Source: a virus. Taken from it: a DNA stretch of 64,000 nucleotides. Shown here one piece after another: positions 6,484 through 55,147 of this stretch. Below the pieces are notes generated by a model. That model ran no database searches. It was not told where the DNA came from and saw only the letters and a list, made by a program, of their open reading frames with translations. How positions within the stretch are numbered: position 1 is the first letter of the stretch; each line of letters opens with the position of its first letter. The translations under genes were made by a program, and so were the position numbers. The DNA is taken from the IMG/VR virus record IMGVR_UViG_3300037485_001872, positions 62,001 through 126,000 of that record. One strand, 5' to 3'.

Positions 6484-6663
6484 ATGACAATAATTGATAT
6501 TTTAAAAGTGGAAACAGAAATGAAACGTTTCCAAGAAAGAATGGAGGCCGCTAAAACTAGAATCGCAGCAGATTCATGGGCAGTCCAAGGTTGTAAAGAA
6601 ACTGGAGCCCTAAAAAGGGCAGCTATGGATTTAAAGAATTGTTTAACAACACTTACAAAATGA
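6484..6663 (+). CDS. Small helical protein, 59 aa
   Basis: A frame of 59 codons (MTIIDILKVETEMKRFQERM...) is highly helical, with heptad-like spacing over residues 5-30. Its stop TGA overlaps the ATG of the GroEL-type gene at 6660, which fixes that start. It could be a partner of the chaperonin, but it does not resemble GroES or the T4 gp31 co-chaperonin in sequence: no beta-rich mobile-loop pattern is visible. Confidence 0.6.
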   Translation: MTIIDILKVETEMKRFQERMEAAKTRIAADSWAVQGCKETGALKRAAMDLKNCLTTLTK

Positions 6664-13335: not shown

Positions 13336-13986
13336 TTACATGCTCTCTGGAAAATAATATCGTAAATTACTAGTATTTGGTATTTGTTCCTTTAACATCT
13401 GTGTCACATAAAATCTACTACGGCCATAGTCTTTTGCAGCTAAATTTATAGAAGAGTAAATTTCGTTAGTCTCTATATTAATTACAGGTGTACCTTTTGT
13501 TTTAGATATTTTATCTCTACATTCTTTTGACTTAGGTATTCCTAATAGACTTTTCAACAATCCTCTTCTTGTTCCTTCTGCCATTTGTTTCCCTCTATTA
13601 GATGCTGCTCCTTTTGCTCTTGCTTCTGGAGTCCTTACTTTTCCAATTTGCCATTCTGACATTTTTCTTCTAGTTTCCTCTGAATATACTGGAGGTAATA
13701 AATCTGTGGCAGGTAGTATACAATTTAATCCTACTTCTGGGTCTAATACATTATAATACTCTCCCCAATATCTTTCCTTAATAAATCTATTATCAAAATT
13801 ACATTCTTCAATTATAGTGAAGATGTGGTTTTCCCATCCGTATTTTTGAATTGACCTGTATATGATGGTTTGTCCTACAACCTCACTTCTTTTATAGTTA
13901 CTTTTTCTCTTTGTTATATTTAAAGTAGAACCAACATAAATCCTTCCAGAAGGACTTGTAATCATATAAATCCATGCTTTTCTCAT
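13336..13986 (-). CDS. GIY-YIG homing endonuclease with NUMOD modules
   Basis: The 216-aa protein starts with a GIY-YIG nuclease domain (WIYMITSPSGRIYVGSTLN, residues 4-22, with the catalytic Arg expected just after and a Glu near residue 72). NUMOD3-type DNA-binding segments follow (SEETRRKMSEWQIGKVRTPE, residues about 105-125), and a C-terminal NUMOD1 helix-turn-helix (VINIETNEIYSSINLAAKDYG). It is a free-standing selfish gene placed directly after the 4974-aa gene, whose stop it overlaps. No intron boundaries are visible. Confidence 0.88.
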   Translation of the reverse strand: MRKAWIYMITSPSGRIYVGSTLNITKRKSNYKRSEVVGQTIIYRSIQKYGWENHIFTIIEECNFDNRFIKERYWGEYYNVLDPEVGLNCILPATDLLPPVYSEETRRKMSEWQIGKVRTPEARAKGAASNRGKQMAEGTRRGLLKSLLGIPKSKECRDKISKTKGTPVINIETNEIYSSINLAAKDYGRSRFYVTQMLKEQIPNTSNLRYYFPESM

Positions 13987-16900
13987 TAGATACCTCCTGT
14001 TTTATCAATAGTATTTATGTTATTATCTAAGGCTTCTTTTTTAAGTTTTTCCTTTTCTAATTTAGATGGTTTTTGAACTGAAATTAAAACTTCACTATTT
14101 AACATACGATAGAAGGAAGTCTTCTCCCTAACCGCATCTGCGTTTCGTAAGTCCATATAGTGTTTGTAATACGTATTTCTCAATAATAGTCTAGCAACTT
14201 TAGGATAACCCTCCCATGTGCCAGAAGTTACAGGGTCAGAAGTCCAATCTTTCACTGTAAATAGTTGAGACATTGTATTACCAGCCATAATAGGTGATTT
14301 TATAATATCTATAACATTCAAGAATCCTGTTGGAGCCTGTGATGAACCAACTTCCGAAGTAGTTCTAAAGTAAATAAATGAAAGGTATTGGATAGCCCAG
14401 TTGTGTTTATTCTTGTCATCATCCGCAGCGGCCATCACTAACATTCCTAGCATCGTTAAAATAGTGAATGCGGCAACATCTAAAGCAATTAATTTCAAAT
14501 TGGCTTGTTCTGTCTTAGATAGACTTCTATAGTTAGACTTAATAGACGAAATAGCCTTTGTAAGCCCATCTTTATAGGCTAATGAGGTTAAGTCAGAGAT
14601 GAAGTGCTTAAATGTAATATAATGACCTTCTTCTTCAATTCCTTGGCGTAAATTTAAGTGCTTTCTCTTAAACCTTTTTTGAACTCCTAATGTAAACCAA
14701 TCCTTGAAGTTTGTAAAGAATTGCATCATAAAGTGTCGACTTGCTGCACTCTTATCGTCAGCTGAGGTTTTAGAATCTATTGTATTATTAGTAGAAATTA
14801 TTTTACTCTGTACACGACTTAATAAAGCATCTGCATATTCTTTACCTATAGCATTTTCTGTGGCTTCACTTAGTTGCATAATTCCCTCTCTATTTTCTAA
14901 TAGATTGTACAAGGAATCTTTACGAAGTGTGTTCCACTTAAATAATAAAGCCTTACTATCAATATTTGCATTATCTGCTCTAAGCTTAAACTCCTCGTAT
15001 GTTAAGAACTTATCACCAACAAGTCTAAAATCATCTAAAACACTAAGCATTACAATATTTGCGTGTGGGGTTGCCGCCATTTCCATAAATGCATATGGAC
15101 TGTCATTTAATGAACGCAATATTCTATTATACCCAGCACTCTTAGTCTTAGTAGCAATTTCATGCACTCCAAAGGTTTCACCTAGTTTGTACAATTTATT
15201 TTGTTTGTTAACCTTTCCTATCTCTGTAGTGTATTCTGGTAATAACTTAGATAGTTCTCCCCCAGCCCATCTACTTGAGTTAGTATTGATATATAAACCG
15301 ACACGGTTGTAAATAGCAAGTTGAATGTTAGATACTAAAGCAGAGGTGATGGCAATTGTTGGAGAAAATCCTAATGCCGCTTTCTTAATCAAATTATTAA
15401 AATGTACGGCCATTCTTGATACATCCACTTCCTTACCATTTTGTAATGTTATGGATGACTTCGCTGAGAGCCTTCTACCGTAGAAATATGCATCCATGGC
15501 TTCTCTATATGCTTCCGCTACATTGGTGGACGCTGGAGCCTTCCCTTTGTCAAATTTAGAGTTTAATAACTTATTCTGTATTACAGAAACATCGGCAATA
15601 GAGTTAATACGTTGTTCGAAGGTATTTGCTGCATTTTGTAATACGGCATAAGAATATATGAAATCATTTGAAACATCCTCCATATCATCCAAATCTCTTA
15701 AATAGTATTTTGGAATAATACGTATGTCTGTATCCTGTCCTTCCACTTGCTCTCCATAATCCTTTTCGTCCTCTCTATTATAGATGACATCTTTTACGCT
15801 ATTTTTAATAGCATCCCAACTTGCATTTTGAATACGTTCATATTTACCTCTTCTAACCTGTGGAATCTTGTTAATATTTCTTCCCTCTTCCTCATACTTA
15901 ATGTGAGCATCTTTGGTTACGGCCTTTAATTTTTGAAGCATTGTAAATTCTTCTAAATTAGTTGTGGCTTGCCCATTAGCATCAGGATTAAATCTACGGA
16001 AGTATTCATCATTTCTCCACTTACTGATTTTTGGTTGTTTAAATCCAAATTCAGAATCGGTTTTATAATCTGGGTTACGTAAATCTTCTCCCTCTTCCAC
16101 CCATTCAAATCTAGTTGAAATAGCCAGGTTATGTAAAATATTAGTTGGAGCATAAGCTGTTGCTTTAGCTGCTTCTAAATCATCCAATAATTTAGTGGTG
16201 GAATAGGTTCCGTCTTTTAGGTTTATTAAAAGCGCATCATATCCCATAGGAGCAAATCTCTTGAAGTAGCTAGTTACACGTTCTCTACTGTAATCGGCCA
16301 CTAACTCTTCCATCCCTCTATTTGTTAAAAGACTTCTAACATCGTCTGAAGAATTCACCCCATATTTTCTATCAAAATAGTCTTCATATGCTTTAAGGTT
16401 TTCTCCCCCACGTTGTACATTTTTAAGAGCTGAAGTGAAACGTCTAACCCGTGATTTATTCTCTTCTGTCATATGTAGAAGAAGAAACTCGGATTCTGGT
16501 TTACCTGAGTCGGCTAAAGCTTTAGTATAAGCTTCGTTTGTTGTATTTTCTGAATAGGAGAAAGGGTCTTCAATCTTCTCTTCATACTTACTTAAAATTG
16601 TATTAACATCTAGGAATAGTTCTTGAATACGGTCTTCTTTTTCAATTATATTCTTCTTTGTTAATTCCCCCATTAAATCGTATTCAATCTCCGCTGGCGA
16701 GTTAGCCGAAGTGAATTGACGTAAGATTTCTTTTTTAGAATTAAGAAGCTCTTCCAACTCATCCATACTAGCCTTCATAGTTCTACTATGCTCAGGTGTT
16801 ATACGGCTATCATTAAGTCTTATTGCATCCACTCTATCTACCATTTTGGTAGTGTTAGCAGTTATTGCATTCCAATAAGCATCACTAAAGTTTAATCCAC

Positions 16901-19900
16901 CATTGGCCATTAAGAATTTGAATGCGGCCTGGGAACCATCTGTAGATTCAATATCTCTCACTGCTGAGAAAAACTCATTTTTTATAGTTTTCTTTTTAGC
17001 CTCCTGTACTTTAACAACTTCGCTCGGTCTAAGTTCAGAGAAATTTTTAGAGAATAAACTTTGTGCCACCTTATTATTCATTTTAGTTTGCACAATTTCA
17101 TCCAGCTTTCTAAGTTGATTTGCAATCTCTAAATCCACTCCTGTTTTTTCCTCACCTGTTTCCGCATTGAAGAAACTTTTACGAGCTTTTCTGTCAGATA
17201 CAATTCTACTTAAATTATATTGGTCTTCCTCTTCAATTTTAGAATAATCCACTGAACCAGAAACACGATATTTTTCTAGTATTTCTGCTTTACGGGAAGC
17301 TAAATTAGCTAGGAACACTCTTAATTCATTTCCAACACCTGCTTCTGTATATAGATTTTCTTTATCTTGATAGTACTTAGCAACCATTGGTCTTTCAAGG
17401 TTTTCTTCATACCAATCATTTTTTGCTTTCAGAAATTTGTCTAATCCCTCATCGGTTAAGTCTGTTTCTACTGGGTATCGTTTTGCTTTTGCAATTTCTT
17501 CTTTTTTCTCATCGGTTAAATTAGCTTCATAAGCATCCTCAATCATTTTCTTTTCTGCATTGTCGAAGTCTTGGCTTCTAATAACAGAAATTAAATAATT
17601 GGACACTGAGGATTCTCTTAAACTTTTGAAACGAGTTATGTTCCAATTGTTTTTCTCAGCATAAGCTATAAGAGGGTTGATAATTTTTAATGTAGCTAGG
17701 TTAGCTAACATATTATTATTGGCAACAATCTTACCTAATAAATTTAAGAAAATATTTGGAGCATGTTCTAGCTGTCCAAAAACCTTTTGTAGAACATTAA
17801 CATCTCTTTGTACGGCATCAAAAGAAGCTTTAATATTCTCCTTAGTTACTACACCACTCTCTGTAGAAGAATCTGGAAGGTTAAGTCCCATTAATGTTCT
17901 ATCTACTATTTGCTCAACATCCTTATTTTCTTGTAAGTATGCTTCCCCCTGGATTCTATGTATCTCAATAGTTTGTTGTTCTAGTTGAGCTACAAGTTTA
18001 TCCTTATTTACATTTGGTTGATTTGGGAAGGTTTTAAATAAAGCAATAAGTCTATCTAACTGTGGAAGGGCTACAGTTGTTAAATATCTGTATTGTGATT
18101 GGTCTCCAAAGTTAAAAGCGGCTCCTGGGGTTTTTTTGTAAATACGAAGCTTGTTACTTAAATTGGTAATCTGTGCTTCATTCATACTAGCTATAACTTG
18201 AACAGCATGAAATTCATCCACTTCATTTAAAGAATTATTTAGAGCCTCTAATTTAACCTCCTCTGTTAAAGTATCATCAGCAAAAGCTTTGTTAAGTGTG
18301 GCTGTATTGGTTCCTATTTTTGCTATCGCTGCATTTAACCTACGAATATCTGATTTTAACGTCTGTGCGCCACTATCTTTAAGCTTTTGTAGAATACGTT
18401 GGTTACTTTGGATGTGTTGCTTCGCAACTTCTAATTCACCTAATAAACGTCTACGTGTTACATCTAATGTATTCACTACAGTGTTATTTACACTATATAG
18501 CACTAATGAACTTTGCTTTAATACATTTCTATCTAGAAACTCAGAATCCTCATTTAAAGCTATCCTTGTAGCCATATCCATATACTCCTGAAGAGCTGTT
18601 CTATGTCCTACATTTAAATGAGCTTGTATTCTATTAATGAAGGAGTTGATAATAGCAATTAACTTTTGAAATAAGGAGGGGTTCCCTGCTGTGTTAGCAA
18701 ATCCCTCTAGAATATTATTTAAAAGAATTTTTCCTAGGATTTCACGTCTAACGGCTTCCTCAAGTTCTTCTCCCTCATACAACTCAGAATACTTTTGATA
18801 GTACTCACCACTAAAAGTTTCCCATTCAGGTGTATTTTCAATTTCTTTTAATAAGTCACGGATTTCTTGTTGGTTTGGGTGCGCTTCTATTATTATATGC
18901 GCCACTTCTTCTGTTAAGTCTTGTAATGTAGCATTATCTGAAAGAGCTACAACACCATTAGCTAAATCTACTAAAGCATTTACCGATAGGTCAGTGCCTG
19001 TACGTACTTTATATTTGGCCGTATATTCTGTAATACTCACTACAGAAATTCCCATTTTATTAAGTAGGCCAAGTAATTTAGATTTTAGTAAATCCTGCTC
19101 CTGTTTTGAAATAGGAACTCCTTTAAATGGTGTGGACTTTTGATATGACAGGTTAAATAAAACATCATGCACCCCGTCTAAATCTGCATCAATTTTCCCT
19201 TTTTCTAAATCAGAGATTGACACTTGTTTAACCCCACCATCTTTGGTTGGTATTTCAATAACACTTTCATCTTTTTGATTAAGGGTGAATGTACCATCAT
19301 TAGAGAGTGTCATTCCTTCTCTACCTAAGTCGGCCAGAGCTTCATCAGAAAGGATGGCGGCACTAACAATTGAGTTTATAGCAAGTTCTCCCTTACCAGC
19401 TAATTTGAACTCTCCATTTGGCATTTGCTTCTTGTTAGGAGCTATTAAACCTTGGCGTAAGTATTTATTTATAAATCCACTAATTGACTTAGGATTACTA
19501 TTACTGTCAATAGCGGCCACCTTTAAAAAGCTGTCAGGATTTTCTAACTTGTATTGGTTATTCATCACCACTAAATCAGCAGTGGCTATATCGAATACAT
19601 CTGGGTTAGTTGTAATCATTATATCGTCTGTAGATATAAATCCCATTTCAATGCTACCAATATTTGTGTTATTTAAAGCATCTGCAAAATTAGTGAACAC
19701 TTTACCCTCTGGGGTACGATAGAATAGCTTAGGTTCTCCCCCTTTGTTTACTAGGGGATTTGCTTTTCCACTGATTTTAACCTTTGGATTTTTTATAACC
19801 ACCTGGGTTTCTCTTTTTCCTGCGGCATCAAAAGTACTTAGGAATACAACATCTGCTTTGGCTGCATTTATCTCAGTTGTTTCATTTTGTCTAGCTACAG

Positions 19901-22900
19901 AGAATGGTACATTAGTTTCTACCCTCACTGTCTCTACTTTTGGTGAATCTACTAGGTAGAAATCTACACCACTTCCTCTATCATACTCTTTGGCCATTTC
20001 ATAAGTTGTGGCCGCAAAAATACCCTCTACATCTGGGTGAGCATTAACTCCTGTCTTTCCATCTATTCCCTTAAAGTAAAGAGAAGGTGATTTCATTTTA
20101 GCCGCTGTAGATAGTATTAAGGCTTTTGCTGTAGGGTGTAATTTTTCTACAGGAACATTTTCTAGTTGTTTTTCAATATCTTCATTGGTAGATGGGGTTG
20201 TCCAATCTCCAAAGAATTTCTTAAATTTCTCTGAGAATACATTTTGGAAAATACCATTAGCATCTTCATTACTTTGGATGTGTGGGTTGGCAGCTATTTC
20301 TGAGAATAGTTCTGAAGCTACTTGAGGAGTTGGAGCTATTTTATTAGCATCAATCATATCCTCCACTGTTTTGTACATTTTCTTGAAATATTCAGCATGG
20401 AGTTGAGGATTAGAATGAAAAGATTTTTCTAACATATTTTCATTTCTATCTGCCTCCACTGTAACATTCATCATATCATCAAGGGCTGTTCCTTCATATA
20501 CGGCAAGATTATATATATTGGCGTGAGAAATAACATCAGCATTATCTTTTAAGAATTTAATTGTGTTCTCATACGTTGCTGCTGTTTCTTTTTCAAAACC
20601 AATGATTAAATTTGGAATAAATTTCATTCCATTTTTTCTAATAATTTGAACGGCTTCTGCATTTAATCTTTCAGAGTTTGGTTTACTCATACCACGCATT
20701 ACAGAGTCGTTATTAGACTCTACACCAATTTCTACTAAAGCTATACCAGCTTTTTGCCAAAATCCTGGATTACTATCAATCTTTTTAACAGTGGCTGAGG
20801 TAGTTTGGATAATGAACCCTTTAAATCCTGGTTGTTGCTCCTTAACTCTTTGGTAAACATCTTCCAAATAAGTATAATTATCTGCCTGGCCAAATGTTTT
20901 ATCATCTAAGTAGATGTATTTAGCATTTAATTTTGAAATATTTTCAACTTGCTCATCAATATTCTCCTTTGTTATTTTTTCAATCTTCTTAACAACAGTA
21001 CAGAAAGCACAATTAAATAAACATCCTTCTGACATTTTTAGACGAGGAATAATTTCCATCCCTTTGAAAACATCATACTTATATCCATCTTTAAAATCAT
21101 ATCCAGCTTCTAACACCCCGTCTTCCATTGTATCAAAAGTAGAAGCATTTGTAGTGTTAAATTTACTTGAAAGATTAGGAATATAACCTCCTAACATGAA
21201 GTTTATTGATGGGTTGTCTTTTACAAGTGTTTGAGCTGTAGATAAATTGGCATCTAATACAGAAAGCATTACCTTTTTATACCCTGCTTGTTGAATAAAG
21301 TTAAGGGTTTCCTCTGGGTCACGCATTACATACATGTCCATATCTTTCCCTACACTATTATTAACAGCTGCTATCCAGAATGGAACCTCCATAAAGTCAA
21401 CGCTTCTATCATACCCCTCCACTTTAGAATACACCTTATCAAAATAATCATCAAAGATTTGTCCTTGTTCTGTAACATTTCCTTCACGTTGTCTATCCAA
21501 TATGTATTGTGAGCTAACTTGAATAGTTAATACCTTATCGGCATTATCTTTTGAAGGATTTTGGTTTACATAAATATTCTTTTGATTTAAACCATCATGT
21601 GCTGCTAATGCTTCTGTATATGTAGGAAACCCTTTAGTATCTTTAAATGTAGATGATGGTGTTAATGATGTATTTTTTTCAAAACTAGAAAGTCCTTCAA
21701 TTTTAAAATTAGGACGGGTGGTTTCTTTCGAAAAATATGTGTTTGCTTCTTGTAATTTTTCTCTTACATTATCCCCACGGAACGTATTGAAATAAGCTAT
21801 TTCTTGTTGCATTGCTTTTACATCACCATTCACCACTGCTAATGCTAATTGACGAGCATGCTCTTGCGCAATTGACATTACAGGTTGTGCTTCATAAGCG
21901 GCTCTAAACAAGTCAAGGCGGTCTTGATTCATTGAAGATACTTGTGCATAACTATCTATTGGAGAAAGTCTATCTGAGGTAATTTTTCCTAAGAAATCTT
22001 CTATCTTATTTATCTTTTCAAATATATAAGACGGGTCTAAAAATGTATTTTTGTATTTTGCAAGTTCTCTTAATACATCTCCTGCATTCTCTATTTTATA
22101 TTTCCAAACATTTCCACCCTCTCCTTTAAAAGACACTTCTAAAAGTCTTTCTGCATTAGCATCTTGGTGGTCATATACATCAACTTCTTGTGGGGCTAAA
22201 TATTGAAAGTATTCTCCTTTAAGTATAGCTCCTGTAGAACGAGAAATAAATTCTCCTAAAGGCATGTTCGCTAATTCTTCTGATGAAGCATCTTTAAGTC
22301 CAAATTGCTTGGCCACCCATTCATAAATTGTAGAAAGCCAATCTTTTAGTTGTTGTAGGAAGCCTTTATCATTTGATAAATTGTCAAGTTCTTTTGCTCC
22401 ATACTTTCCAATTAAGTTAGCTCTCACCTCATCCACAAGTCTTTCAAGATGTTGCTCAGGAGATTCCTCTGCTGCCCTAGCATAAACAGGGTTGTTTAAA
22501 TCCATTCCTGTTGCTGTTGCTAAGTCACTAAGTTGGGTTTGTGAGTTTCTTACAACAAATTGTGTCATAATGTTATGTACATCAGTGTATTCCTTCTTTA
22601 ATTCTGTATAAGAAATATTAGATAGGTCTACCCCTGCAAATTTATGGTTTAAAATATCGGCCACTAATCTGGCTTCTACTTCCCCAAATAATAAAGAATA
22701 ATTTAAGTATTTGGCATCTGTCTTATTTGTATTAAAGAAGTAATCTAATTCATATTGTGCAGCACTTAAAATATTACTTTCATTTACTGAAGGAGAGTTA
22801 TTTTTTAGATAAATAGCAATAGCATCTCGTACTTCTCCTAATTTATTAGAAGAATTTCCTATTATTTTTTTGGCTTCGTTAAATATTGTATCACTATTTC

Positions 22901-25900
22901 CTCCTCTTGGAAAATTCTCTATTTCCTGAATAGCATGACTTACTTCATGTATAAGAGTTAAAGCATAATATTTACTCCCATTAAGGTCGCCAGACTCGAT
23001 ATTGTTGATGATATTTCGAACCTCTCCTCCGTTGTTCCCAACTCCTGATTCTCCAATATTTTGCTCTCGGCTACTAATACGAATAAGTCCATTAGAGTAA
23101 GACCCGTTAGCTGTGTCAGCTTCTGATTTTTTGTAGAAATGTACATTTATATTTTTTAATTGTGGATATAATGTGAATAAACTAGTGTTTTCTAATACTT
23201 GGTCTAGGGTGTATTCTTTCCCTGGAGATGTATCTAGTCCTTTTTTAATATTAAACTCTTGTAATAGTTCATTAGAGAAATATTTCCATTGGCCTTCCTC
23301 TTTAAACCATCCTGTTTTATTTTCTATCTGTTGTGGGGAAGCTCCTTGAATTTCTAACTCCTTTGCCTGATTAAATAAAGAATTTAGCACGTTTAGGTTT
23401 TTTGCTCCTTGCTCTCCTACTATTTGAAAAAGAGGAATATTGTGTTTACCTCCTAATACCTCTAATAGAATAAGTTGTTGTTCTCTCACAACATCCTCTG
23501 TTTTACTAAGTAATCTGTTTCTTCTAGCTTCGGGTGTAAAAATATTTCTATAAGTTACGTTACGAGCCTCTACTTCTCCTGCTAATTTTTGATATAAATT
23601 ATATGGGGAAAACTCTGAAATTCTATCTCTAATAGGATTTAAATATTCATCTAAAGCATAAAGAACATCCATATAATCCTCTCTAGCTGCAATTTCCATC
23701 TTAATACGTAGTCTTTCAGGAAGATTATCCCACTCTTCTTCTATTTGTTTTGCTAACTCTTCGGATATTACTAAATCCTCTTTAATTAAAAAATCAGCCT
23801 TAAAGATTTTGTTTAGTTTTTTTTCTGTAATATCATCTAATAGTTCCACTATATAAGACATTTCCCTTAATACGTTCTCCTGTACTCTTAGATTTTCAAT
23901 CTCATTTAGTTGTTCCTTGGTAAATATTTTATTTAAATTTTCTAATACTATTTCTGTGTTTCCACCTTTTGCAAAAAATTCTATAAATTGAATAGCATGT
24001 TGAAGCTCATGTATTAAATCTCCAAATATGAGTCTTTCTTCTTTAACATTTATTTCAATTGAGTTTGTTTCGGGGATATACCATGAATTATTTCTTACAC
24101 GTGGGTCTATAGATATGGTGACTTTCATATCTTTTAGTTGTGGGTATGCTTTAAATAGTTCTGAATTGTTTAACACTTGACTAAGTGTATACTCTCCATT
24201 AGTGCTTATTTTTAGGGTTCCATCTGCAATTTCATACTTCCACTTTCCTTCTACCCCCTTTTCCCAACCTGTAGCTAAAAGGATTTCTTTAGGTGTCTTA
24301 CCTAATTCTTCTAATTTTTGTGCCACACTTAGATTCTCTAACACGGCTGTAGCATTTTCTAGTCCTTTAGCCCCCTTTTCTCCTATAATTTGAAAAAGAG
24401 GAATACCTTGCTTTACCTCATTTTGTAGTTCTGGGGTGATGTCTATTTTATAAATAGATGGACTAATTGAATTTAATTCTTCCACTATCTTAGTAGCTTC
24501 ATCTTTAGTATATTCTATGTCTTTTCCATTTTTATTATTCCATTCCCTAGCAATACCATTCCATATAGAAAAATTACCATTTGGTTTTTCCTCTATATAT
24601 GATGCTGCAAGTAGTGCATTATCGTCTTCAAACTTAGTAGTGGTTGGGGTTTGTTTAAAAACACTCTTAGCGACCTCCCCAACAGTGCCTAATGTTCCTT
24701 TAACAGGATTTCCGTAAAAGGCATTCATCCCTTCTCTACGTGGCATAGAAACACCTGATTCCTCAGTTTGCATTCTATTCCATAACCTGTCAATTAATTT
24801 TTGTTTTTGTGCCTCGTTACGTTCTCTACTTAACACTTTATCAACAACTGCTGCAAGTTGTTCTTTAGTTTTAACTACAACATTATTAGCAGAAAGCATT
24901 AAATTATCAACATCTGTATTTTCAAATGCTGTTCCTCCCACTTGTTCTTTGATATTAATACTCCACCCCTCTAAAGGAGTGTATTTTGGTTTATCATTTA
25001 TTGATGAATACTGGGCTCTCTCTTCAGGAGTTAATTTATCCTCCCATCCATTTCCATATTTGTTATAAAGGTCATTAACTAAAGTTTGTCTTTCTTCATT
25101 CCTTTCTTTGTTTCTTTCTGTAGCTTTTTGCCATTGGATTTTTTCACTTCCCCAACGTTCAAATTGTTGTTCACCATTTGTCCAAGAAATACTATCAACA
25201 CCTTGTTTTACGGCTTCCTTTAAAGCAACTTTAAAGGCAAGTTTCACCCATTGTGGGGTACTTGTTATGAAAGGAGCTGTTGGTATTTTTGATTTAATGT
25301 TAAAATTATTATCAAATAAAGCATTGTAATCCTCCTTATTTTGATTAAAATTTAATATGGCTTCGCTATTAACATTTAATTGTCTTTCATATGCAATTAT
25401 TTCTGCCTTTATGAGTGTATCAGCAAATGCTTGTCTAGATGTATGATTAAAAAAGTGTGCATCATCTTTTCTATTATTAAAATCCAACATTTTTTCGTCA
25501 TGTCTTTGTTGAATCATCTCTAATCTAGTAGCAAGTGAGGTTTCAGAAAGTACTTTTATTCTATCTTCTGTTGCACTACTATTTAAATATTCAGATAGGT
25601 TTATTAATTTTGCATATTCCTTTTGACTATCTTCCCATCTAGTACGAATTTCTGATAGTTGTTCGGGGGATAATGCTGCTTTATCTGCTGTTATATTTTG
25701 AGCATTATATTTCTGACCCCAATCGCTCTGAAGCTCTTCGAGAAATAACGTAGATGCACCATTTATATCTGTACGGGTATCCATACGTAAATGTACTAAT
25801 ACGTTGGGTTCATCCCAATGTGCTGAAGAGAAGTTTTTTGATTTTGAAATATCTGTTCCTATGTCCTCTAAATATTTATTATACTCTTCTTCAACTCTCT

Positions 25901-28900
25901 CTGGACTCCCAAATAATATACCATTATTATTAGAGGCTACCATAAATTCATTTCGAGTCATTGGGGCTTGTTTTGGAAGCACCACTAATATTTCCCTATA
26001 ATTCTGTCTGGCTCCTTTTTCAGTATGTGCTCCCCACTTTACTTCTTTTTGTTCCTTAAAATACTCTGTAATTTGGTCTTTTGCTTCTGTGAGTGTTTCT
26101 GGATACAATCGCATATCCAATTTCATTCCCCCTGGTTTATAAACATGGAAATCCTTATCCCCTCTTTTTTCAATTCTCCACCCTGCATTTTTAAATTCAA
26201 CAATATTTCCTATAGGAGATGTTCGTTCACTTCTTACCCAAGCTTCAGTGTCTAATTCATTACCTGATATTTTAGCATCAAGTTCTTCCAGTTTTTTATA
26301 AATATCACCAAATTCTTGTTGGTATGTAGCCTCCATTTCTTCTCCTGCCTCTCTTAGGTCTTCTCCTAATTGTGCATATCCACTTTGAGAATAACTTCCA
26401 GTCCACTCATCCATTTCCCTTCGTATTCTTGTAACTTTTTCTTGTATTGCCTCTGCCGCTGGAGATACTCTATCCCTTATTTGTTGTTGCAGAGCTGCTT
26501 TTTGCTTATTGAATTCTTCTGCTTCTTTTAGTGTTAAACTACCCTTCACAACCTCAACCACCTGTACACGATTGTCCTTTAAGAATTGTTGTATTTCGGC
26601 TTTTGTAACACTTCTATTTTGTTCTTTCAACCAGGCGTTTAACCCAACCCATTCTGCTTCTGACCCTTTTCCAAATTTATCCAACCATTGTTTTGCTGGA
26701 ATTTTTTCCACCTTACTTTCAGAAATTAGTTTTTCTAATGGTGAATAAAAACCATTAACTACTTCTGCCGCAATTGGGCGTACTTCTGTCGGTACTCCTC
26801 CAATATTCATGGTGATAGTACTACCTACAGCTTCTGCATATTTTTCATCTAAAGCATTTTGCCATTGTTGGGCTATTGGTGTTAATAATTCATTCCCTCT
26901 TTCTAAAATAGCTTGTGCTTGTTTATTTCCATCTTTTGCTGCTTCTTTTAATAGGGCTTGGTGAAGATGCGCCACCTCATGAAGCGTAGTTTCATTAGAT
27001 AGTTTTTCAGGATTTAAATAAATCTTTCCGTCAAAATACATTCCATAAACAACCCCTACTGGAGTTTTTAATTCATATGTATCAAACTTTCTATCAAAGT
27101 TTAACTTAGTTACTACAGGAATACCCATAGCTTCTGCTTGTGCTTTTAGCTTATTAAAAACAGACGGCTCCATCTTAGTAGCATCTAGTTGTATACTTTT
27201 AATATACACCAAAGTATTCTCAATTCCTGCGTCTCCTCCTATTTTAAGTTCCTGTTCTCCTATAAAGGTTCCTATTTCTTCACTACCTTTTTCAATTTTA
27301 GTATTTTCTTTTAACTTTTGTAAGTCTAAATCAATTCTAACTCCTCCATCTGCAAATGTTACAGGAGACCCATCAGGTAGATACCAACGAGTAGTGGTAA
27401 GTTCTGGATGGTCAAATTGGTCAGAGGTAGTTGTAGATACTCCTGGATACTCTCCTTCATCTCCTACGATGATATTACTGTCAAGTATTGAAGCTAAATT
27501 CTTAGTTGTAGTGTAATGGTAAGTAGTGGGTGCATTAATATCTCCCTCAAGACCATATGGATTATCTTGAACATTTAATAGCTTATGAAAAGCCATTTGC
27601 TCTGTTCTAAGTGGTTTTGCAAACTCTCCTTTTCCAGGTTCCACTTGGTCATATGTAAGTTCTTTATTTTGCCATCTATCATAAAGCTTATTTTGTTCCC
27701 TTGTAAAATTCTCATCTACAACATTTCTTAAATCAATTAAATCTGATGGTGATAATTTTACTCCTTGTTTTAAAGCATCAATGTATTGTCTAAAATTTTC
27801 TAAAGTGATGCGTTCTCCTCCAAAAGTTGAGGGGGCATTAAATTTTAGTTGCTCTTTAATAGTGATGGCTTTATCATCAAATACAACGTAATTGCGTTCT
27901 TTAGAAATATTATCTGTAACTCCTGTTCCTAAACTATCAGGTGGGTATTGTATTCCATCAATTCCAGCTCTTAATAAAAATTCTGAGGCAGCTTTTGCTG
28001 AACCATCAAGACCTCTAAATTGTTTTTGTAGTTCTGAATATATTTCTGCGGCTGTATATTGAGGAGAAGCTAAACCTGATGTATTAATTCCTTCTTTTTT
28101 CCCTTGTTTTGCTATCTTTGCAGCTTGTGTTGGGGTTAGTTTTTGATACCAATCTAAGAAGTCATATTGGTCTGGTGTTTTTCCTTCATGTAACGCCACT
28201 TTATAAACCACCCCAGAATTTGTTAATTTTGTCTTTATAGTTTCATTTAACAATGTTTGGGCTTCATCAATGGCTTTCTGTTGATACTCAACATCATTTC
28301 CATATTCTAATTCCTTTTGAGAGTCCTTAATAAAATCACGGATGATATTTTTTATTTCTTCTTTAACAGATGCATTTTTATTAAATTCATTTTTTAAATC
28401 TATTTCTGCTATTGTAAGCTCATCTACAAGTCTTCTTTGAGTTTCATTTTTGGCATTTTTATATCCAACTACAACACCTTTTTCATAGATTTTCCACTTT
28501 CCAATAGAAATATCCTGAATCTCAGTGTCGGCCATTTCCTTTGCATAATTGTCTGCAATATTTTTAAGAGAAGTGAAATAAATTCCATGCCCAAATACGC
28601 TTCCACCTTGACCTTCTCCAACTTTTGACATATCAAAATTATCGAAAGTACGACCAGTACCATGAAATGCTTCCACCTGTGCTAGATAAGCTGAATGTTC
28701 CGCAATAATACGGTTCATCTCATTCACATCTGTAGAAATGACTTCATTCGGGGTGAACTTTTTGAAAAGGTCTTTGAAGTAGTTTATAAGTACCTCTGGA
28801 GAAGTTGATTCCGCTGTTGGTGTAGCTTGAAAACTAGGAATTTGTGCACTTAAATAGTTGTACACTTTACTAATAACACCTTTCTTGTCTCTTTTTATTA

Positions 28901-28910
28901 TGCAAGTCAT
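13986..28910 (-). CDS. Giant polyvalent virion-type protein, 4974 aa, with ART, zincin and radical SAM domains
   Basis: One uninterrupted 14.9-kb frame in the position of the injected cargo proteins of crAss-like phages. Domains from the N-terminus: ADP-ribosyltransferase of the polyvalent type (HGTGRTFDNFD, GHGIYFTS, closing YVVFDDKAI; about 75-355); a second ART-like segment (YHYTTTKNL, STTTS, GEQE; about 463-600); zincin HEVAHLHQ near 643; a polyvalent domain with AHWDEPNVLVHLR, EELQSDW and WTNGEQQFERW (about 1030-1260); two tandem zincin units (HELQHAIQ near 1633, HEVSHAIQ near 1987); a Rossmann-like region and radical SAM domain with CLFNCAFC near 2633; degenerate zincin EEVAHIIIEAH near 3335; long helical regions; and a hydrophobic helix near 4817. 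Function in the virion is inferred from context. No RNA polymerase motif was found. Confidence 0.85.
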   Translation of the reverse strand: MTCIIKRDKKGVISKVYNYLSAQIPSFQATPTAESTSPEVLINYFKDLFKKFTPNEVISTDVNEMNRIIAEHSAYLAQVEAFHGTGRTFDNFDMSKVGEGQGGSVFGHGIYFTSLKNIADNYAKEMADTEIQDISIGKWKIYEKGVVVGYKNAKNETQRRLVDELTIAEIDLKNEFNKNASVKEEIKNIIRDFIKDSQKELEYGNDVEYQQKAIDEAQTLLNETIKTKLTNSGVVYKVALHEGKTPDQYDFLDWYQKLTPTQAAKIAKQGKKEGINTSGLASPQYTAAEIYSELQKQFRGLDGSAKAASEFLLRAGIDGIQYPPDSLGTGVTDNISKERNYVVFDDKAITIKEQLKFNAPSTFGGERITLENFRQYIDALKQGVKLSPSDLIDLRNVVDENFTREQNKLYDRWQNKELTYDQVEPGKGEFAKPLRTEQMAFHKLLNVQDNPYGLEGDINAPTTYHYTTTKNLASILDSNIIVGDEGEYPGVSTTTSDQFDHPELTTTRWYLPDGSPVTFADGGVRIDLDLQKLKENTKIEKGSEEIGTFIGEQELKIGGDAGIENTLVYIKSIQLDATKMEPSVFNKLKAQAEAMGIPVVTKLNFDRKFDTYELKTPVGVVYGMYFDGKIYLNPEKLSNETTLHEVAHLHQALLKEAAKDGNKQAQAILERGNELLTPIAQQWQNALDEKYAEAVGSTITMNIGGVPTEVRPIAAEVVNGFYSPLEKLISESKVEKIPAKQWLDKFGKGSEAEWVGLNAWLKEQNRSVTKAEIQQFLKDNRVQVVEVVKGSLTLKEAEEFNKQKAALQQQIRDRVSPAAEAIQEKVTRIRREMDEWTGSYSQSGYAQLGEDLREAGEEMEATYQQEFGDIYKKLEELDAKISGNELDTEAWVRSERTSPIGNIVEFKNAGWRIEKRGDKDFHVYKPGGMKLDMRLYPETLTEAKDQITEYFKEQKEVKWGAHTEKGARQNYREILVVLPKQAPMTRNEFMVASNNNGILFGSPERVEEEYNKYLEDIGTDISKSKNFSSAHWDEPNVLVHLRMDTRTDINGASTLFLEELQSDWGQKYNAQNITADKAALSPEQLSEIRTRWEDSQKEYAKLINLSEYLNSSATEDRIKVLSETSLATRLEMIQQRHDEKMLDFNNRKDDAHFFNHTSRQAFADTLIKAEIIAYERQLNVNSEAILNFNQNKEDYNALFDNNFNIKSKIPTAPFITSTPQWVKLAFKVALKEAVKQGVDSISWTNGEQQFERWGSEKIQWQKATERNKERNEERQTLVNDLYNKYGNGWEDKLTPEERAQYSSINDKPKYTPLEGWSINIKEQVGGTAFENTDVDNLMLSANNVVVKTKEQLAAVVDKVLSRERNEAQKQKLIDRLWNRMQTEESGVSMPRREGMNAFYGNPVKGTLGTVGEVAKSVFKQTPTTTKFEDDNALLAASYIEEKPNGNFSIWNGIAREWNNKNGKDIEYTKDEATKIVEELNSISPSIYKIDITPELQNEVKQGIPLFQIIGEKGAKGLENATAVLENLSVAQKLEELGKTPKEILLATGWEKGVEGKWKYEIADGTLKISTNGEYTLSQVLNNSELFKAYPQLKDMKVTISIDPRVRNNSWYIPETNSIEINVKEERLIFGDLIHELQHAIQFIEFFAKGGNTEIVLENLNKIFTKEQLNEIENLRVQENVLREMSYIVELLDDITEKKLNKIFKADFLIKEDLVISEELAKQIEEEWDNLPERLRIKMEIAAREDYMDVLYALDEYLNPIRDRISEFSPYNLYQKLAGEVEARNVTYRNIFTPEARRNRLLSKTEDVVREQQLILLEVLGGKHNIPLFQIVGEQGAKNLNVLNSLFNQAKELEIQGASPQQIENKTGWFKEEGQWKYFSNELLQEFNIKKGLDTSPGKEYTLDQVLENTSLFTLYPQLKNINVHFYKKSEADTANGSYSNGLIRISSREQNIGESGVGNNGGEVRNIINNIESGDLNGSKYYALTLIHEVSHAIQEIENFPRGGNSDTIFNEAKKIIGNSSNKLGEVRDAIAIYLKNNSPSVNESNILSAAQYELDYFFNTNKTDAKYLNYSLLFGEVEARLVADILNHKFAGVDLSNISYTELKKEYTDVHNIMTQFVVRNSQTQLSDLATATGMDLNNPVYARAAEESPEQHLERLVDEVRANLIGKYGAKELDNLSNDKGFLQQLKDWLSTIYEWVAKQFGLKDASSEELANMPLGEFISRSTGAILKGEYFQYLAPQEVDVYDHQDANAERLLEVSFKGEGGNVWKYKIENAGDVLRELAKYKNTFLDPSYIFEKINKIEDFLGKITSDRLSPIDSYAQVSSMNQDRLDLFRAAYEAQPVMSIAQEHARQLALAVVNGDVKAMQQEIAYFNTFRGDNVREKLQEANTYFSKETTRPNFKIEGLSSFEKNTSLTPSSTFKDTKGFPTYTEALAAHDGLNQKNIYVNQNPSKDNADKVLTIQVSSQYILDRQREGNVTEQGQIFDDYFDKVYSKVEGYDRSVDFMEVPFWIAAVNNSVGKDMDMYVMRDPEETLNFIQQAGYKKVMLSVLDANLSTAQTLVKDNPSINFMLGGYIPNLSSKFNTTNASTFDTMEDGVLEAGYDFKDGYKYDVFKGMEIIPRLKMSEGCLFNCAFCTVVKKIEKITKENIDEQVENISKLNAKYIYLDDKTFGQADNYTYLEDVYQRVKEQQPGFKGFIIQTTSATVKKIDSNPGFWQKAGIALVEIGVESNNDSVMRGMSKPNSERLNAEAVQIIRKNGMKFIPNLIIGFEKETAATYENTIKFLKDNADVISHANIYNLAVYEGTALDDMMNVTVEADRNENMLEKSFHSNPQLHAEYFKKMYKTVEDMIDANKIAPTPQVASELFSEIAANPHIQSNEDANGIFQNVFSEKFKKFFGDWTTPSTNEDIEKQLENVPVEKLHPTAKALILSTAAKMKSPSLYFKGIDGKTGVNAHPDVEGIFAATTYEMAKEYDRGSGVDFYLVDSPKVETVRVETNVPFSVARQNETTEINAAKADVVFLSTFDAAGKRETQVVIKNPKVKISGKANPLVNKGGEPKLFYRTPEGKVFTNFADALNNTNIGSIEMGFISTDDIMITTNPDVFDIATADLVVMNNQYKLENPDSFLKVAAIDSNSNPKSISGFINKYLRQGLIAPNKKQMPNGEFKLAGKGELAINSIVSAAILSDEALADLGREGMTLSNDGTFTLNQKDESVIEIPTKDGGVKQVSISDLEKGKIDADLDGVHDVLFNLSYQKSTPFKGVPISKQEQDLLKSKLLGLLNKMGISVVSITEYTAKYKVRTGTDLSVNALVDLANGVVALSDNATLQDLTEEVAHIIIEAHPNQQEIRDLLKEIENTPEWETFSGEYYQKYSELYEGEELEEAVRREILGKILLNNILEGFANTAGNPSLFQKLIAIINSFINRIQAHLNVGHRTALQEYMDMATRIALNEDSEFLDRNVLKQSSLVLYSVNNTVVNTLDVTRRRLLGELEVAKQHIQSNQRILQKLKDSGAQTLKSDIRRLNAAIAKIGTNTATLNKAFADDTLTEEVKLEALNNSLNEVDEFHAVQVIASMNEAQITNLSNKLRIYKKTPGAAFNFGDQSQYRYLTTVALPQLDRLIALFKTFPNQPNVNKDKLVAQLEQQTIEIHRIQGEAYLQENKDVEQIVDRTLMGLNLPDSSTESGVVTKENIKASFDAVQRDVNVLQKVFGQLEHAPNIFLNLLGKIVANNNMLANLATLKIINPLIAYAEKNNWNITRFKSLRESSVSNYLISVIRSQDFDNAEKKMIEDAYEANLTDEKKEEIAKAKRYPVETDLTDEGLDKFLKAKNDWYEENLERPMVAKYYQDKENLYTEAGVGNELRVFLANLASRKAEILEKYRVSGSVDYSKIEEEDQYNLSRIVSDRKARKSFFNAETGEEKTGVDLEIANQLRKLDEIVQTKMNNKVAQSLFSKNFSELRPSEVVKVQEAKKKTIKNEFFSAVRDIESTDGSQAAFKFLMANGGLNFSDAYWNAITANTTKMVDRVDAIRLNDSRITPEHSRTMKASMDELEELLNSKKEILRQFTSANSPAEIEYDLMGELTKKNIIEKEDRIQELFLDVNTILSKYEEKIEDPFSYSENTTNEAYTKALADSGKPESEFLLLHMTEENKSRVRRFTSALKNVQRGGENLKAYEDYFDRKYGVNSSDDVRSLLTNRGMEELVADYSRERVTSYFKRFAPMGYDALLINLKDGTYSTTKLLDDLEAAKATAYAPTNILHNLAISTRFEWVEEGEDLRNPDYKTDSEFGFKQPKISKWRNDEYFRRFNPDANGQATTNLEEFTMLQKLKAVTKDAHIKYEEEGRNINKIPQVRRGKYERIQNASWDAIKNSVKDVIYNREDEKDYGEQVEGQDTDIRIIPKYYLRDLDDMEDVSNDFIYSYAVLQNAANTFEQRINSIADVSVIQNKLLNSKFDKGKAPASTNVAEAYREAMDAYFYGRRLSAKSSITLQNGKEVDVSRMAVHFNNLIKKAALGFSPTIAITSALVSNIQLAIYNRVGLYINTNSSRWAGGELSKLLPEYTTEIGKVNKQNKLYKLGETFGVHEIATKTKSAGYNRILRSLNDSPYAFMEMAATPHANIVMLSVLDDFRLVGDKFLTYEEFKLRADNANIDSKALLFKWNTLRKDSLYNLLENREGIMQLSEATENAIGKEYADALLSRVQSKIISTNNTIDSKTSADDKSAASRHFMMQFFTNFKDWFTLGVQKRFKRKHLNLRQGIEEEGHYITFKHFISDLTSLAYKDGLTKAISSIKSNYRSLSKTEQANLKLIALDVAAFTILTMLGMLVMAAADDDKNKHNWAIQYLSFIYFRTTSEVGSSQAPTGFLNVIDIIKSPIMAGNTMSQLFTVKDWTSDPVTSGTWEGYPKVARLLLRNTYYKHYMDLRNADAVREKTSFYRMLNSEVLISVQKPSKLEKEKLKKEALDNNINTIDKTGGI
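20340..21345 (-). other. Radical SAM domain inside the giant protein
   Basis: Residues about 2520-2860. The [4Fe-4S] ligand motif is EGCLFNCAFCTVV (CX3CX2C), with IYLDDKTFGQ, ALVEIGVESNNDSVMRGM and FIPNLIIGFEKET in the order of the partial TIM barrel of B12-type radical SAM enzymes. The preceding 100 residues (VMLSVLDANLSTAQTL, NFMLGGYIPN) look like a Rossmann domain in the place of a cobalamin-binding domain, but no DxHxxG is seen. All three Cys are present, so it could be active. Confidence 0.85.
27850..28690 (-). other. ADP-ribosyltransferase-like domain of the giant protein
   Basis: Residues about 75-355 start AFHGTGRTFDNFDMSKVGEG and continue GSVFGHGIYFTS, ending RNYVVFDDKAITIKE. This is the H-Y type pattern of ART domains found in phage polyvalent proteins. 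Substrates of these domains are not known. Confidence 0.75.
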
Positions 28911-31455: not shown

Positions 31456-34400
31456 TTATTTCTTTTTACGTGTTTTACATTTTTTACTCAACTCTTCATT
31501 TGCGGCCTTAGTATTCTCTTGTGTTGGAGTTGACACTACATCGGGAGCTACATCTACAATTGATGGTTTCATTTTTCCAATGTAGTCCATTGAAAGTCCT
31601 CCAAAAATAGGAATTGTTTTGTCTATGTTCATGAATTTATCTAGAACGTCTTTAGAGTTCACAAATCCTCCTATGGTGTTTTCTCCTTCTGAGCTTCTAA
31701 TTATTATAGTGGCATTTAGTTTTGCTGTTTTCTTGATTTGCTCGAAAATAGCTTCTTTTTGTTCCACTGTAACTCCCGCTTCTAAACTAACTATTATAGT
31801 GTCGTGAGATGAATAATCATAATCTTCCCCTCTGGCTGTCACTAAATTAACTTTAGAACCCACTGCATCTAGAACTTTTTGTCCTAAAGCATTAGCTTCC
31901 TGTGAAATATCTACACCAGTTACTTTATGTTGTTTTTTCTCAATTAGTATTGGAGAAAGTGGAATGGCTCCTGAACCTATAAATACAACATTACCTTTCA
32001 TAAAACGGGTTTCTTTTTGTAAAGTTTCTACATAGTCAGCATAATATTCAAAATCTTCTAGTGTTTTAGTTCCCGCAATTATTTCATTTGCAAAAGCTAC
32101 TTCTCTATCATAGTCTTCTTGGTTTAGGTTTTGTAATAATTGGGGTGTTTCTTTGAGGGATTGTTCTACTGCCTTAACTTTCTTAAAAGCCAATATCTTT
32201 TTGCGACCTAATTCAACGTGTGATGCCATTCTATGTTGTCCATCATGGAAAAATCCGCTATAAATTACAGGTGGCAATTCTTCCCCTCTTTTTAATAGTT
32301 TCACCATATCATTGACTCTATCCATGTGTTCTAAATCACCATCGTAATCATCAACTAATTTATCTTTGTCGATTTTAGTATTGACAGAAACATAAGTTAA
32401 TTCATATTGACCACTAAATTTATTAGAGCTGTTATCAGCATAAGCCCCCATTCTGTCGTATATTTTAGTCAAATCTTCCGCAGAAACAACTTCACCTAAT
32501 TTAATGCCACCCCATTCGCTTCTAATATCTTCCTTCACATCTCCTACACCAACACCAACACTACCTGCTTGGGGTGTTTCTTTGAGGGATTGTTCTAAAA
32601 TTACATCAACTTGTTCACCTCCGACTACAAGTGTAGCTACTTTTTTACCATAAAAAGGAGATGACTTATCTGTTCCTTCACGAATTTCAGTAACTCTTAC
32701 TGGAATATTTTCCTTTCCTTGTGATTCTTTTATTGCTTGTATTAACTCTAATGCACTTTCATTTTCTTCGGATTTTAAATCTATGCCTAAATTTTCTACT
32801 GCTTCTTCAAACGTGTTAAAACCCTTATCATTTTGTTCTCTACTCTCTCCTTGTTTATTTGTAGTTTGTGTTTTAAATTTAGTTGTTTTTACACCATTTT
32901 TTTCTGTTGTAGTTACAACCACCTTAACCATTTTACCCGAGCCATCATTTACAGTTTTATATGGTTTTTCCAATTTACTTCCCACATCTCCCCCTACACC
33001 AACACTACCTACTTCTTCTTCGGTTTTACCTTGTTCTTTGGGTAACAGTAAATCTTCTACAGTTTTTACTAATTCAGGATTAGTGTCGTCTAATTTTGCT
33101 TTGTGGTATGCTTCCGAAACATCTCTTGCAGATTTATATTCATCTCCAAATTTATCTTGAAAATCATCAAACCAAGCAATATCTAAATTACCTAATGCAG
33201 TCCCTGTACTTTCAATATCTTTTAATGTATTATTAGATACCTCATTTGTAGTAGCATCTTCTCCCCCTACACCTACACTCCCTGCTTTTGGTAAAGCTGT
33301 TGCTTGACTTTTTGGGGCTTCAAGTAAAGGTGTAGCTTGACTTTTTAGTTGAGAAAGTATAGATAATTCGTTGCTGTACTTAGTAATTTCATCAAATGCT
33401 CTTTTGGGTTGTTCAAGTAATAATGTAAGTGTATCTCCTAAGTTATTTGTACCTCTTAACCAACCTATATAAGTACCTTTATCTAAATTTTCAGTAAATT
33501 TGGGAATACCTACCACCTCTGCAAAATAATCTAATATAATTTGAGTTGCTGTAGTTCTTGTATTAACTTGGGAATCAGGTAGTGAATTTCTTCTTATATC
33601 TACATCGGATACTTTTACTTCTTGGGTAGGGACTACTGGTTGAGCTTCTTCATCCACTCCTTCAAATAGTTCCACCTCCTCATTCGGCTCCCCAAAATCT
33701 AGTACAACCTTTGGTGAATGAAAAACATCCCCACGTAAATCTAAATGTATACTTGCATTTTCAATTAAAGTTTGTTCCATATCTGTTTCTGGTAAAAGCC
33801 AGTCCGACAAAGATACGAATTTATTTACATTAGACAATAAAGATTTTATTTTATCAATCTTTGCTTTATTAAGGTTTCCTGAAGTGATTTGTAGGGGCTG
33901 AACATCAATACCATTTCTCATTAATAAGAGATTTAGATTAGATGCTTTTTCAGCCTCTTCCACTTGTGTATTCATAATAGCATCCACTTCTCCTGAAACA
34001 TCTATCACTGTAGGTATTAGATTAACAGGGTAGGCTACATTCATTCCATTAAATGTAAACACAATAATGGCCACTCTTTTATTATCATATTTACCTTTCT
34101 TATTAGCTTGCACAGATTTTATAAAAGAGGAAACATCTACTTTTGAATCATTTTTTAGATGTACTTTTCCATTCTCAATAAACCCTATATCTACAACATT
34201 TTTTACAGTGTCCTGAGTGAAGGGGTTATTTTGAATAGTTAACGTTCCGTCCTGATTAATTGTAGCATCTAATACAGGGTGTCCTATATACACATGTTGT
34301 ACTGTGACTGTAGTGTTTAAGTCCACCATATCTCCATTACTTGCAAGGAAGGCTTCTGCGGCCTTTTTTCTTATCTCTGATACTCTTTTAAACACCTCAC

Positions 34401-54559: not shown

Positions 54560-55147
54560 TTATTTAACGTCTTTTTGTAAAATGAATAGTTCCCTCTTAG
54601 CTTCTGAAGATACTGTATCTGTAAACATTCTTATAGCATTTAATAATGTATCAAGTCCTTTCCATAAACCGTAGGCTACTGCTTGATTTGTAACCCAACT
54701 ATCATATACTCCACTCATACCTAATACGTCACGGAGTCCTGATAATGATTTTGTTTTAAAATCCTTTTGAAATTCTTCATTATCTTTTAAGTCTTTCATT
54801 GCATTTCCCCGTGCCAAGGTTTTACCTTCCTTATAATATAAATATAATTTACCAATCTCAAAAGAAAGCGCATCTGAACAATCCCTATATAGAAAATTAA
54901 GATTAGTTCTTATATTTGATAGCTCTTCATAACTTATTGGACTTTCTAATTCTCTGTAGGAATTAATTATTTCACCGTATTCCTTAGAATACCCATCCAT
55001 AATATCTTTTAGTTCAACTAATCTTAGATAGTTTGTTGTTAAATGTAAGCTTTCTAATACATTATTTAAAACCTTAATGGCTTCCTCTTTTGTTGTTGCG
55101 GCTACCATTGCTTCTACTAATGGTAATGATTTTTTATTACTACTCAT
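54560..55147 (-). CDS. Hypothetical helical virion-region protein, 195 aa
   Basis: An almost wholly helical protein (LVEAMVAATTKEEAIKVLNN ... TNYLRLVELKDIMDGYSKEY) with no catalytic motif. The C-terminal part contains SLSGLRDVLGMSGVYDSWVT, with a short amphipathic helix after it. Helical proteins of this size occur in crAss-like genomes between tail and fibre genes. It overlaps the homing endonuclease upstream by 8 nt, showing that the endonuclease was inserted at its 5' side. Confidence 0.6.
   Translation of the reverse strand: MSSNKKSLPLVEAMVAATTKEEAIKVLNNVLESLHLTTNYLRLVELKDIMDGYSKEYGEIINSYRELESPISYEELSNIRTNLNFLYRDCSDALSFEIGKLYLYYKEGKTLARGNAMKDLKDNEEFQKDFKTKSLSGLRDVLGMSGVYDSWVTNQAVAYGLWKGLDTLLNAIRMFTDTVSSEAKRELFILQKDVK

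Follow-up and report, generated by a model that had tools for sequence, protein, structure and literature searches.

What does a radical S-adenosylmethionine (SAM) domain do inside a phage protein of 4974 amino acids (aa)? The question is posed by one open reading frame (ORF) in a 64,000-nucleotide stretch of an uncultured virus (IMG/VR record IMGVR_UViG_3300037485_001872, record positions 62,001 to 126,000; hereafter the window, whose numbering is used unless another sequence is named). A first-pass annotation of the window, made from its letters alone, had described the product as a virion-type protein with an embedded radical SAM enzyme. Our analysis agrees: this giant protein joins a radical SAM domain to polyvalent-type domains and to a cargo core homologous to gp49 of phage crAss001. 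The reading that we favour, tentatively, is that of a virion-delivered radical SAM enzyme that would modify bases of nucleic acid and whose partner is a glycosylase-like protein of the family DUF7178.

A complete radical SAM domain with one predicted cluster

The string EGCLFNCAFC, singled out in the first-pass annotation, holds an intact CX3CX2C motif (aa 2630-2637) in a full-length core: aa 2626-2787 align with the whole length of Pfam Radical_SAM (PF04055; positions 3-166 of 166) at E 6.3e-10, with 39.9 bits where the cut-off is 29.5, and this is the sole radical SAM match of Pfam across the 134,122-base virus record. CX3CX2C occurs once in the giant and contains three of its four cysteines; the chance expectation from the giant's composition is ~2.6e-6. 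The domain does lie where it had been proposed (20340-21345), but it begins further upstream, as given here with the ORF and the two motifs.

13986-28910, minus strand: whole ORF of the 4974-aa polyvalent, virion-type protein (Pfam LPD23, ART-PolyVal and Radical_SAM; PHROG 37651, virion structural protein)
20346-21593, minus strand: radical SAM domain with a degenerate B12-binding-like N-terminal Rossmann part, aa ~2440-2855 (PF04055, family alignment, AlphaFold, Foldseek against PDB)
21000-21023, minus strand: CLFNCAFC, the CX3CX2C motif and predicted [4Fe-4S] site, aa 2630-2637
20886-20906, minus strand: family signature DDKTFGQ, aa 2669-2675, near-invariant across the family (62 members)

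Modelling, suggested in the first-pass annotation as a check on the fold, gave a barrel: in the AlphaFold2 model, computed from 23 family members, the mean predicted local distance difference test (pLDDT) score is 89 and the predicted template modelling (pTM) score 0.84. All listed Foldseek matches in the PDB are radical SAM enzymes, headed by AprD4, RimO, MtaB, CysS, TokK, MgmA and MiaB (E between 4e-15 and 1e-12 for these), and a profile search of PDB sequences concurs (AprD4 7.7e-10, RimO 9.6e-9). Judged by sequence and model, residues ~2440-2855 almost certainly form a genuine and complete radical SAM domain. That it is instead a degenerate or purely structural passenger without catalysis would fit the wide domain shuffling in polyvalent proteins, but this is very improbable, as the catalytic and family-invariant residues are all kept (of 49 positions with a conservation of 93% or more among 62 family members, 48 are intact in the giant) and CX3CX2C is present in 69 of 69 viral loci.

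We then considered which class of chemistry the domain might perform. In the model, alternating strands and helices precede the barrel, and the Rossmann-like region that the first-pass annotation had seen in the place of a B12-binding domain is indeed there; it lacks the cobalamin-binding motif DxHxxG, which is absent from all 62 family members and also from 8 cellular comparison sequences, and its Pfam B12-binding match (0.055) is not significant. The domain has no cysteine beyond the three of the cluster motif and no Pfam match to UPF0004 or TRAM. Together, the missing DxHxxG and the lack of additional cysteines speak against three kinds of chemistry, namely methyl transfer that depends on cobalamin, methylthiolation and reactions of the SPASM type. 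Hence we ruled out a cobalamin-dependent (class B) enzyme because there is no DxHxxG, a methyl-thiotransferase because there are no additional N-terminal cysteines and no TRAM, and a SPASM/twitch maturase of ribosomally synthesized and post-translationally modified peptides because the whole ORF has only four cysteines and no cysteine-rich auxiliary-cluster domain. A single-cluster reaction of the 5'-deoxyadenosyl radical is the simplest reading of the domain, and would fit its motifs.

The same observations bear on the idea that the enzyme modifies tRNA, rRNA or a ribosomal protein in the manner of MiaB, MtaB or RimO and so reprograms translation. Its barrel and motif spacing are similar to those of these methylthiotransferases, Foldseek and profile searches match RimO, MtaB and MiaB, and NCBIfam TIGR00089 matches at 2.1e-10, far below its cut-off. 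However, the giant's domain has neither the N-terminal UPF0004 cysteines nor TRAM, and its cysteines, only the three of the cluster motif, leave it without the second cluster that methylthiolation requires, which makes this role quite improbable. The many weaker NCBIfam matches, to PhpK-, BchE- and MiaB-type models, are likewise all far below their cut-offs, placing the domain outside these named families.

A mainly viral family, mostly within large ORFs

As a lone query, the giant's domain found nothing in GenBank phages (tblastn, 1e-5) or in a first scan of IMG/VR. The route to its family led through a distant homologue on a Mesorhizobium plasmid (L007) that shares DKTFGQ: a two-row alignment scanned against IMG/VR gave 26 loci (30-41% identity), and the enlarged alignment gave 69. 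On the plasmid (L007, 3479-6773) the homologue is followed by agmatinase-family and phosphotransferase genes, in an apparently uncharacterised small-molecule cluster. The family, recognised by the signatures DDKTFGQ and GFxxQTT, thus occurs at no fewer than 69 IMG/VR loci, counts that are lower bounds since the scans require exact motif matches and many contigs are fragmentary. At 46 of these loci the domain lies within an ORF of at least 1000 aa; 21 are stand-alone (20 of 369-439 aa, and one ending at a contig edge) and two are intermediate. The first-pass annotation, which had suggested looking for other phages with the fusion, knew of none; the fusion is not unique, as many other uncultured phages have a member of the family within a large ORF. 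The proteins of these other fused members also contain LPD23, LPD38, ART-PolyVal, RadC, GNAT or SprT-like domains.

No member was found among 50,697 GenBank phages, and PHROGs returned at best weak radical SAM-type matches and no family member. Matches in cr110_1 and in Streptomyces phage SF3 were inspected as candidate members and belong to other families. Known stand-alone phage radical SAM genes (the B12-radical SAM gene of Streptomyces phage SF3, a MiaB-like gene of an Acinetobacter phage) are also phage-encoded but are matched only at tblastn E ~0.01 or worse, and the SF3 protein, unlike the giant's domain, has a significant B12-binding match. In a search of 398 Pseudomonadota genomes, the Rhizobium smilacinae reference was the only one to have the family at 1e-30. 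As far as our searches extend, the family is mainly viral and undescribed.

In a maximum-likelihood tree of 40 fused and 22 stand-alone rows (several loci are near-copies), the viral family forms a clade with 100/100 support, apart from cellular relatives; the Rhizobium smilacinae sequence (L013) is one bacterial copy within it. The label 'fused' requires two changes over the 40 rows and the giant's row is nested among fused rows, suggesting that one old fusion was likely followed by reshuffling of partner domains. The Rhizobium gene belongs to an operon (L013, 5911-10839) whose other products we named from their sequences as a class II aldolase, an aldehyde dehydrogenase, a cobalamin-adenosyltransferase-like protein and a nucleoside-phosphorylase-like protein; it could be a cluster for 5'-deoxyadenosine salvage or for a small molecule.

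A polyvalent extension on a crAss-like virion cargo core

LPD-type and other such domains are typical of polyvalent proteins, for which entry into the cell together with the DNA has been argued (PMC5512222). By its sequence the giant bears the marks of this class: it is very large, has several unrelated enzymatic domains and carries LPD domains. N-terminal of the radical SAM domain are an ADP-ribosyltransferase (ART)-like domain, two LPD23 matches and three HExxH motifs, and in this multidomain build with LPD23, ART-like and zincin-type elements the giant resembles the known polyvalent proteins; the radical SAM module is an addition to their repertoire, and the terms 'radical', 'AdoMet' and 'Fe-S' are absent from the main text of the founding paper (PMC5512222). 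The parts of the giant around the radical SAM domain are as follows.

27855-28700, minus strand: ART-PolyVal (ADP-ribosyltransferase-like) domain, aa ~71-352 (Pfam 1.6e-6, slightly below cut-off)
24210-24359, minus strand: LPD23 domain, the better of two Pfam copies, aa 1518-1567 (PF18838, 6.3e-19)
23997-24011, minus strand: HExxH zincin-type motif, aa 1634-1638 (further HExxH at aa 644 and 1988)
21591-21965, minus strand: segment upstream of the radical SAM domain that is kept in other fused proteins, aa 2316-2440 (BLASTP to L060, L074, L086 and L037)
19524-20315, minus strand: region like a separate 281-aa ORF directly upstream of the csAssE-Sib core gene, aa 2866-3129 (BLASTP 1.6e-11)
14082-19529, minus strand: crAss-like virion cargo core, aa 3128-4943 (csAssE-Sib, phi17:2 gp036, crAss001 gp49)

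The ART-like region aligns with an ART-containing polyvalent protein (L039) and also with L080, and the DUF6782 metallopeptidase model gives a weak Pfam match to the giant, below cut-off. We also considered a catalytic virion RNA polymerase and rejected it, as there is no DxDxD polymerase-like motif apart from DADLD at aa 3241.

The C-terminal ~1800 aa of the giant align with csAssE-Sib (reported E 0.0), phi17:2 gp036 (1e-106) and crAss001 gp49 (3e-26), and aa 3128-4937 match PHROG 37651 'virion structural protein'. The phage is crAss-like, of a gut type. Of these homologues, crAss001 gp49 alone is known to be in the virion, as one of five cargo proteins found there by mass spectrometry, and the crAss001 structure paper models the cargo proteins as ejected and then refolded in the host (PMC10172136). 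The phi17:2 homologue is encoded at the equivalent place among the virion genes. Relatives make the core as a protein of its own, 1350-1940 aa long, with neither a large N-terminal extension nor a radical SAM domain, whereas here the radical SAM domain sits in a polyvalent extension of ~3100 aa (ART, LPD23, three HExxH) that relatives lack. A profile search found no family member in the crAss-like relatives covered, while scoring the giant's own record at 8e-153. A small crAss001 protein annotated as an HxsC-like radical SAM maturase (gp56; L106, 23865-24407) is outside the family by the same search.

That this fusion of the domain to a gp49-type core is seen in one genome only, with six crAss-like relatives lacking it, might suggest an assembly chimera of an unrelated radical SAM gene and a virion gene. 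This is scarcely credible. The 4974-aa frame is unbroken, and GC content, overall and at third codon positions (GC3), is alike in the radical SAM region and the remainder of the ORF, so nothing points to a chimera. Moreover, the fused arrangement and the flanking segment recur in many other phages, and csAssE-Sib has the adjoining region as a gene next to the core: its ORF immediately upstream of the core aligns with aa 2866-3129, so the junction follows a natural gene order.

Since the domain is fused to a gp49-type virion cargo core, we reasoned from its homology to crAss001 gp49 that the giant is probably packaged and ejected with the genome, possibly being released by its own zincin-like peptidases. 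An enzyme that is not delivered but works in the virion-producing cell, for instance on virion proteins or on phage DNA that is yet to be packaged, is improbable: stand-alone members are found among replication and DNA-modification genes, and the zincin motifs could cleave the giant before packaging, but the fused forms are polyvalent proteins, which are argued to accompany the DNA into the cell (PMC5512222), and the domain is here joined to the cargo core.

DUF7178 as a recurrent partner

Clustering of the genes around stand-alone members gave one recurrent neighbour family, at seven loci, corresponding to Pfam DUF7178. A Pfam census of 83 neighbour proteins agrees, with DUF7178 leading (7 instances) and the next family found twice. 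DUF7178 also shares an ORF with the radical SAM domain in ~18 distinct giants and is in an adjacent large ORF once (L040). The giant's own phage, too, has a DUF7178 protein, of 213 aa and encoded outside the window (record positions 35019-35585, plus strand; L100, 1486-2127; E 3.8e-31). By Pfam search, DUF7178 is present in 24 of 60 distinct radical SAM records as against 2 of 27 control records (LPD38-type polyvalent phage records without this radical SAM family; Fisher p 0.0014), and in none of five crAss-like relatives. Three stand-alone members, L045, L048 and the near-copy L049, come immediately after a gene for a D12 class N6-adenine DNA methyltransferase, which the radical SAM gene overlaps or follows at ~10 bp (L045, 9198-11140; L048, 1256-3211).

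A VTIDRH motif had raised the expectation of an HhH-GPD protein before modelling. The DUF7178 model (pLDDT 84) has as its best 15 Foldseek PDB matches 14 chains of OGG-type 8-oxoguanine glycosylases and a single other protein, archaeal and uncharacterised. When PDB sequences are searched by profile, N-glycosylase/DNA lyases come first (E 0.0018), with the IDR motifs aligned. A Lys and an Asp are invariant in 17 of 17 aligned members and stand 18-22 residues apart, close to the spacing of Lys249 and Asp268 in human OGG1. DUF7178 (PHROG 3842) carries no assigned function in Pfam or PHROGs. It has a moderate fold match to OGG-type HhH-GPD DNA glycosylases and a conserved Lys/Asp pair that may correspond to theirs, while lying below the reach of Pfam HhH-GPD; from sequence and model we predict that it is an OGG-like DNA glycosylase/lyase.

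Nucleic-acid bases or small molecules as the possible substrate

The first-pass annotation had named host RNA, protein or metabolites as targets. The co-occurring glycosylase-like DUF7178 favours nucleic-acid bases instead, and we tentatively consider a base the likeliest target, with DUF7178 perhaps acting on its modified or unmodified form. Once ejected, and possibly freed by the giant's own peptidases, the domain would refold in the host, gain a [4Fe-4S] cluster and cleave SAM, as its motifs suggest, and the 5'-deoxyadenosyl radical would drive a cobalamin-independent, single-cluster reaction. The purpose could plausibly be to shield incoming DNA from restriction or to turn host DNA into a target. 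Taken to its full extent, this would be a virion-delivered editing system, in which the ejected enzyme alters incoming phage DNA or host bases and DUF7178 excises or discriminates them, protecting phage DNA or destroying host DNA from the first moments of infection; as a complete scheme it is speculative and rather unlikely. Phage radical SAM isomerases reportedly take part in thymidine hypermodification, a parallel that we do not use as evidence.

Several observations weigh against a base as the putative substrate. The resemblance of the DUF7178 model to glycosylases is moderate (Foldseek E no better than 0.005, TM score ~0.45) and Pfam HhH-GPD does not match the family. DUF7178 occurs in 112 GenBank phage records without this radical SAM family, and so is not dependent on it; most radical SAM records, some of them fragments, have no Pfam DUF7178 match, and both families may be common passengers of polyvalent proteins. 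The nearest neighbours of the radical SAM domain by sequence and structure (AprD4, RimO, PhpK, BchE) have small molecules, protein or tRNA as their substrates, and the single cellular member is in a metabolic operon.

The strongest rival, itself unlikely, is thus a virion-delivered enzyme that modifies a small molecule or nucleotide, by an AprD4-like dehydration or rearrangement, and so counters a signalling or defence nucleotide or reroutes metabolism, the link to DUF7178 being incidental. The Rhizobium operon fits such a role, as does the diol dehydratase AprD4 (6fd2), the top match by structure and profile: this B12-domain-type enzyme without auxiliary clusters shares both the N-terminal Rossmann-like part and the barrel. 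However, identity to AprD4 is only ~15%, the viral family has its own DDKTFGQ and GFxxQTT signatures and forms a separate clade, and an incidental link sits poorly with DUF7178 being the commonest neighbour and same-ORF partner, enriched relative to controls.

Other genes in the window

A 2354-aa virion-type protein next to the giant (31456-38520) carries a second SAM-using module, bearing out the SAM-binding domain that the first-pass annotation had assigned to it.

31678-32175, minus strand: nicotianamine-synthase-like, class-I-methyltransferase-type SAM-binding domain at the C-terminus of the 2354-aa neighbour, aa 2116-2281 (PF03059, 2.3e-10, above cut-off)

A 545-aa protein (6639-8276, plus strand) reads from its sequence as a GroEL-like chaperonin and might bear on refolding or assembly. 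Genes of GIY-YIG/NUMOD1 type are dispersed in the structural region (13336-13986, 55140-55802 and 60041-60712, all minus strand) and look like homing-endonuclease-type elements (Pfam was applied to the first two).

Implications

Polyvalent proteins and the radical SAM superfamily are both known; to the extent searched, their combination, this family and its partner are undescribed, and we found no description of radical SAM chemistry as a module of injected phage proteins in the literature searched. A radical SAM family that lies mostly in large polyvalent ORFs and is missing from GenBank phages and PHROGs points to a new class of reaction among those that phages may bring into the cell along with their DNA. 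A further question is biochemical: how an iron-sulphur enzyme would pass through a tail and become active again in the host. From the association with a predicted DNA glycosylase come a concrete hypothesis for the substrate and a candidate function for DUF7178/PHROG 3842.
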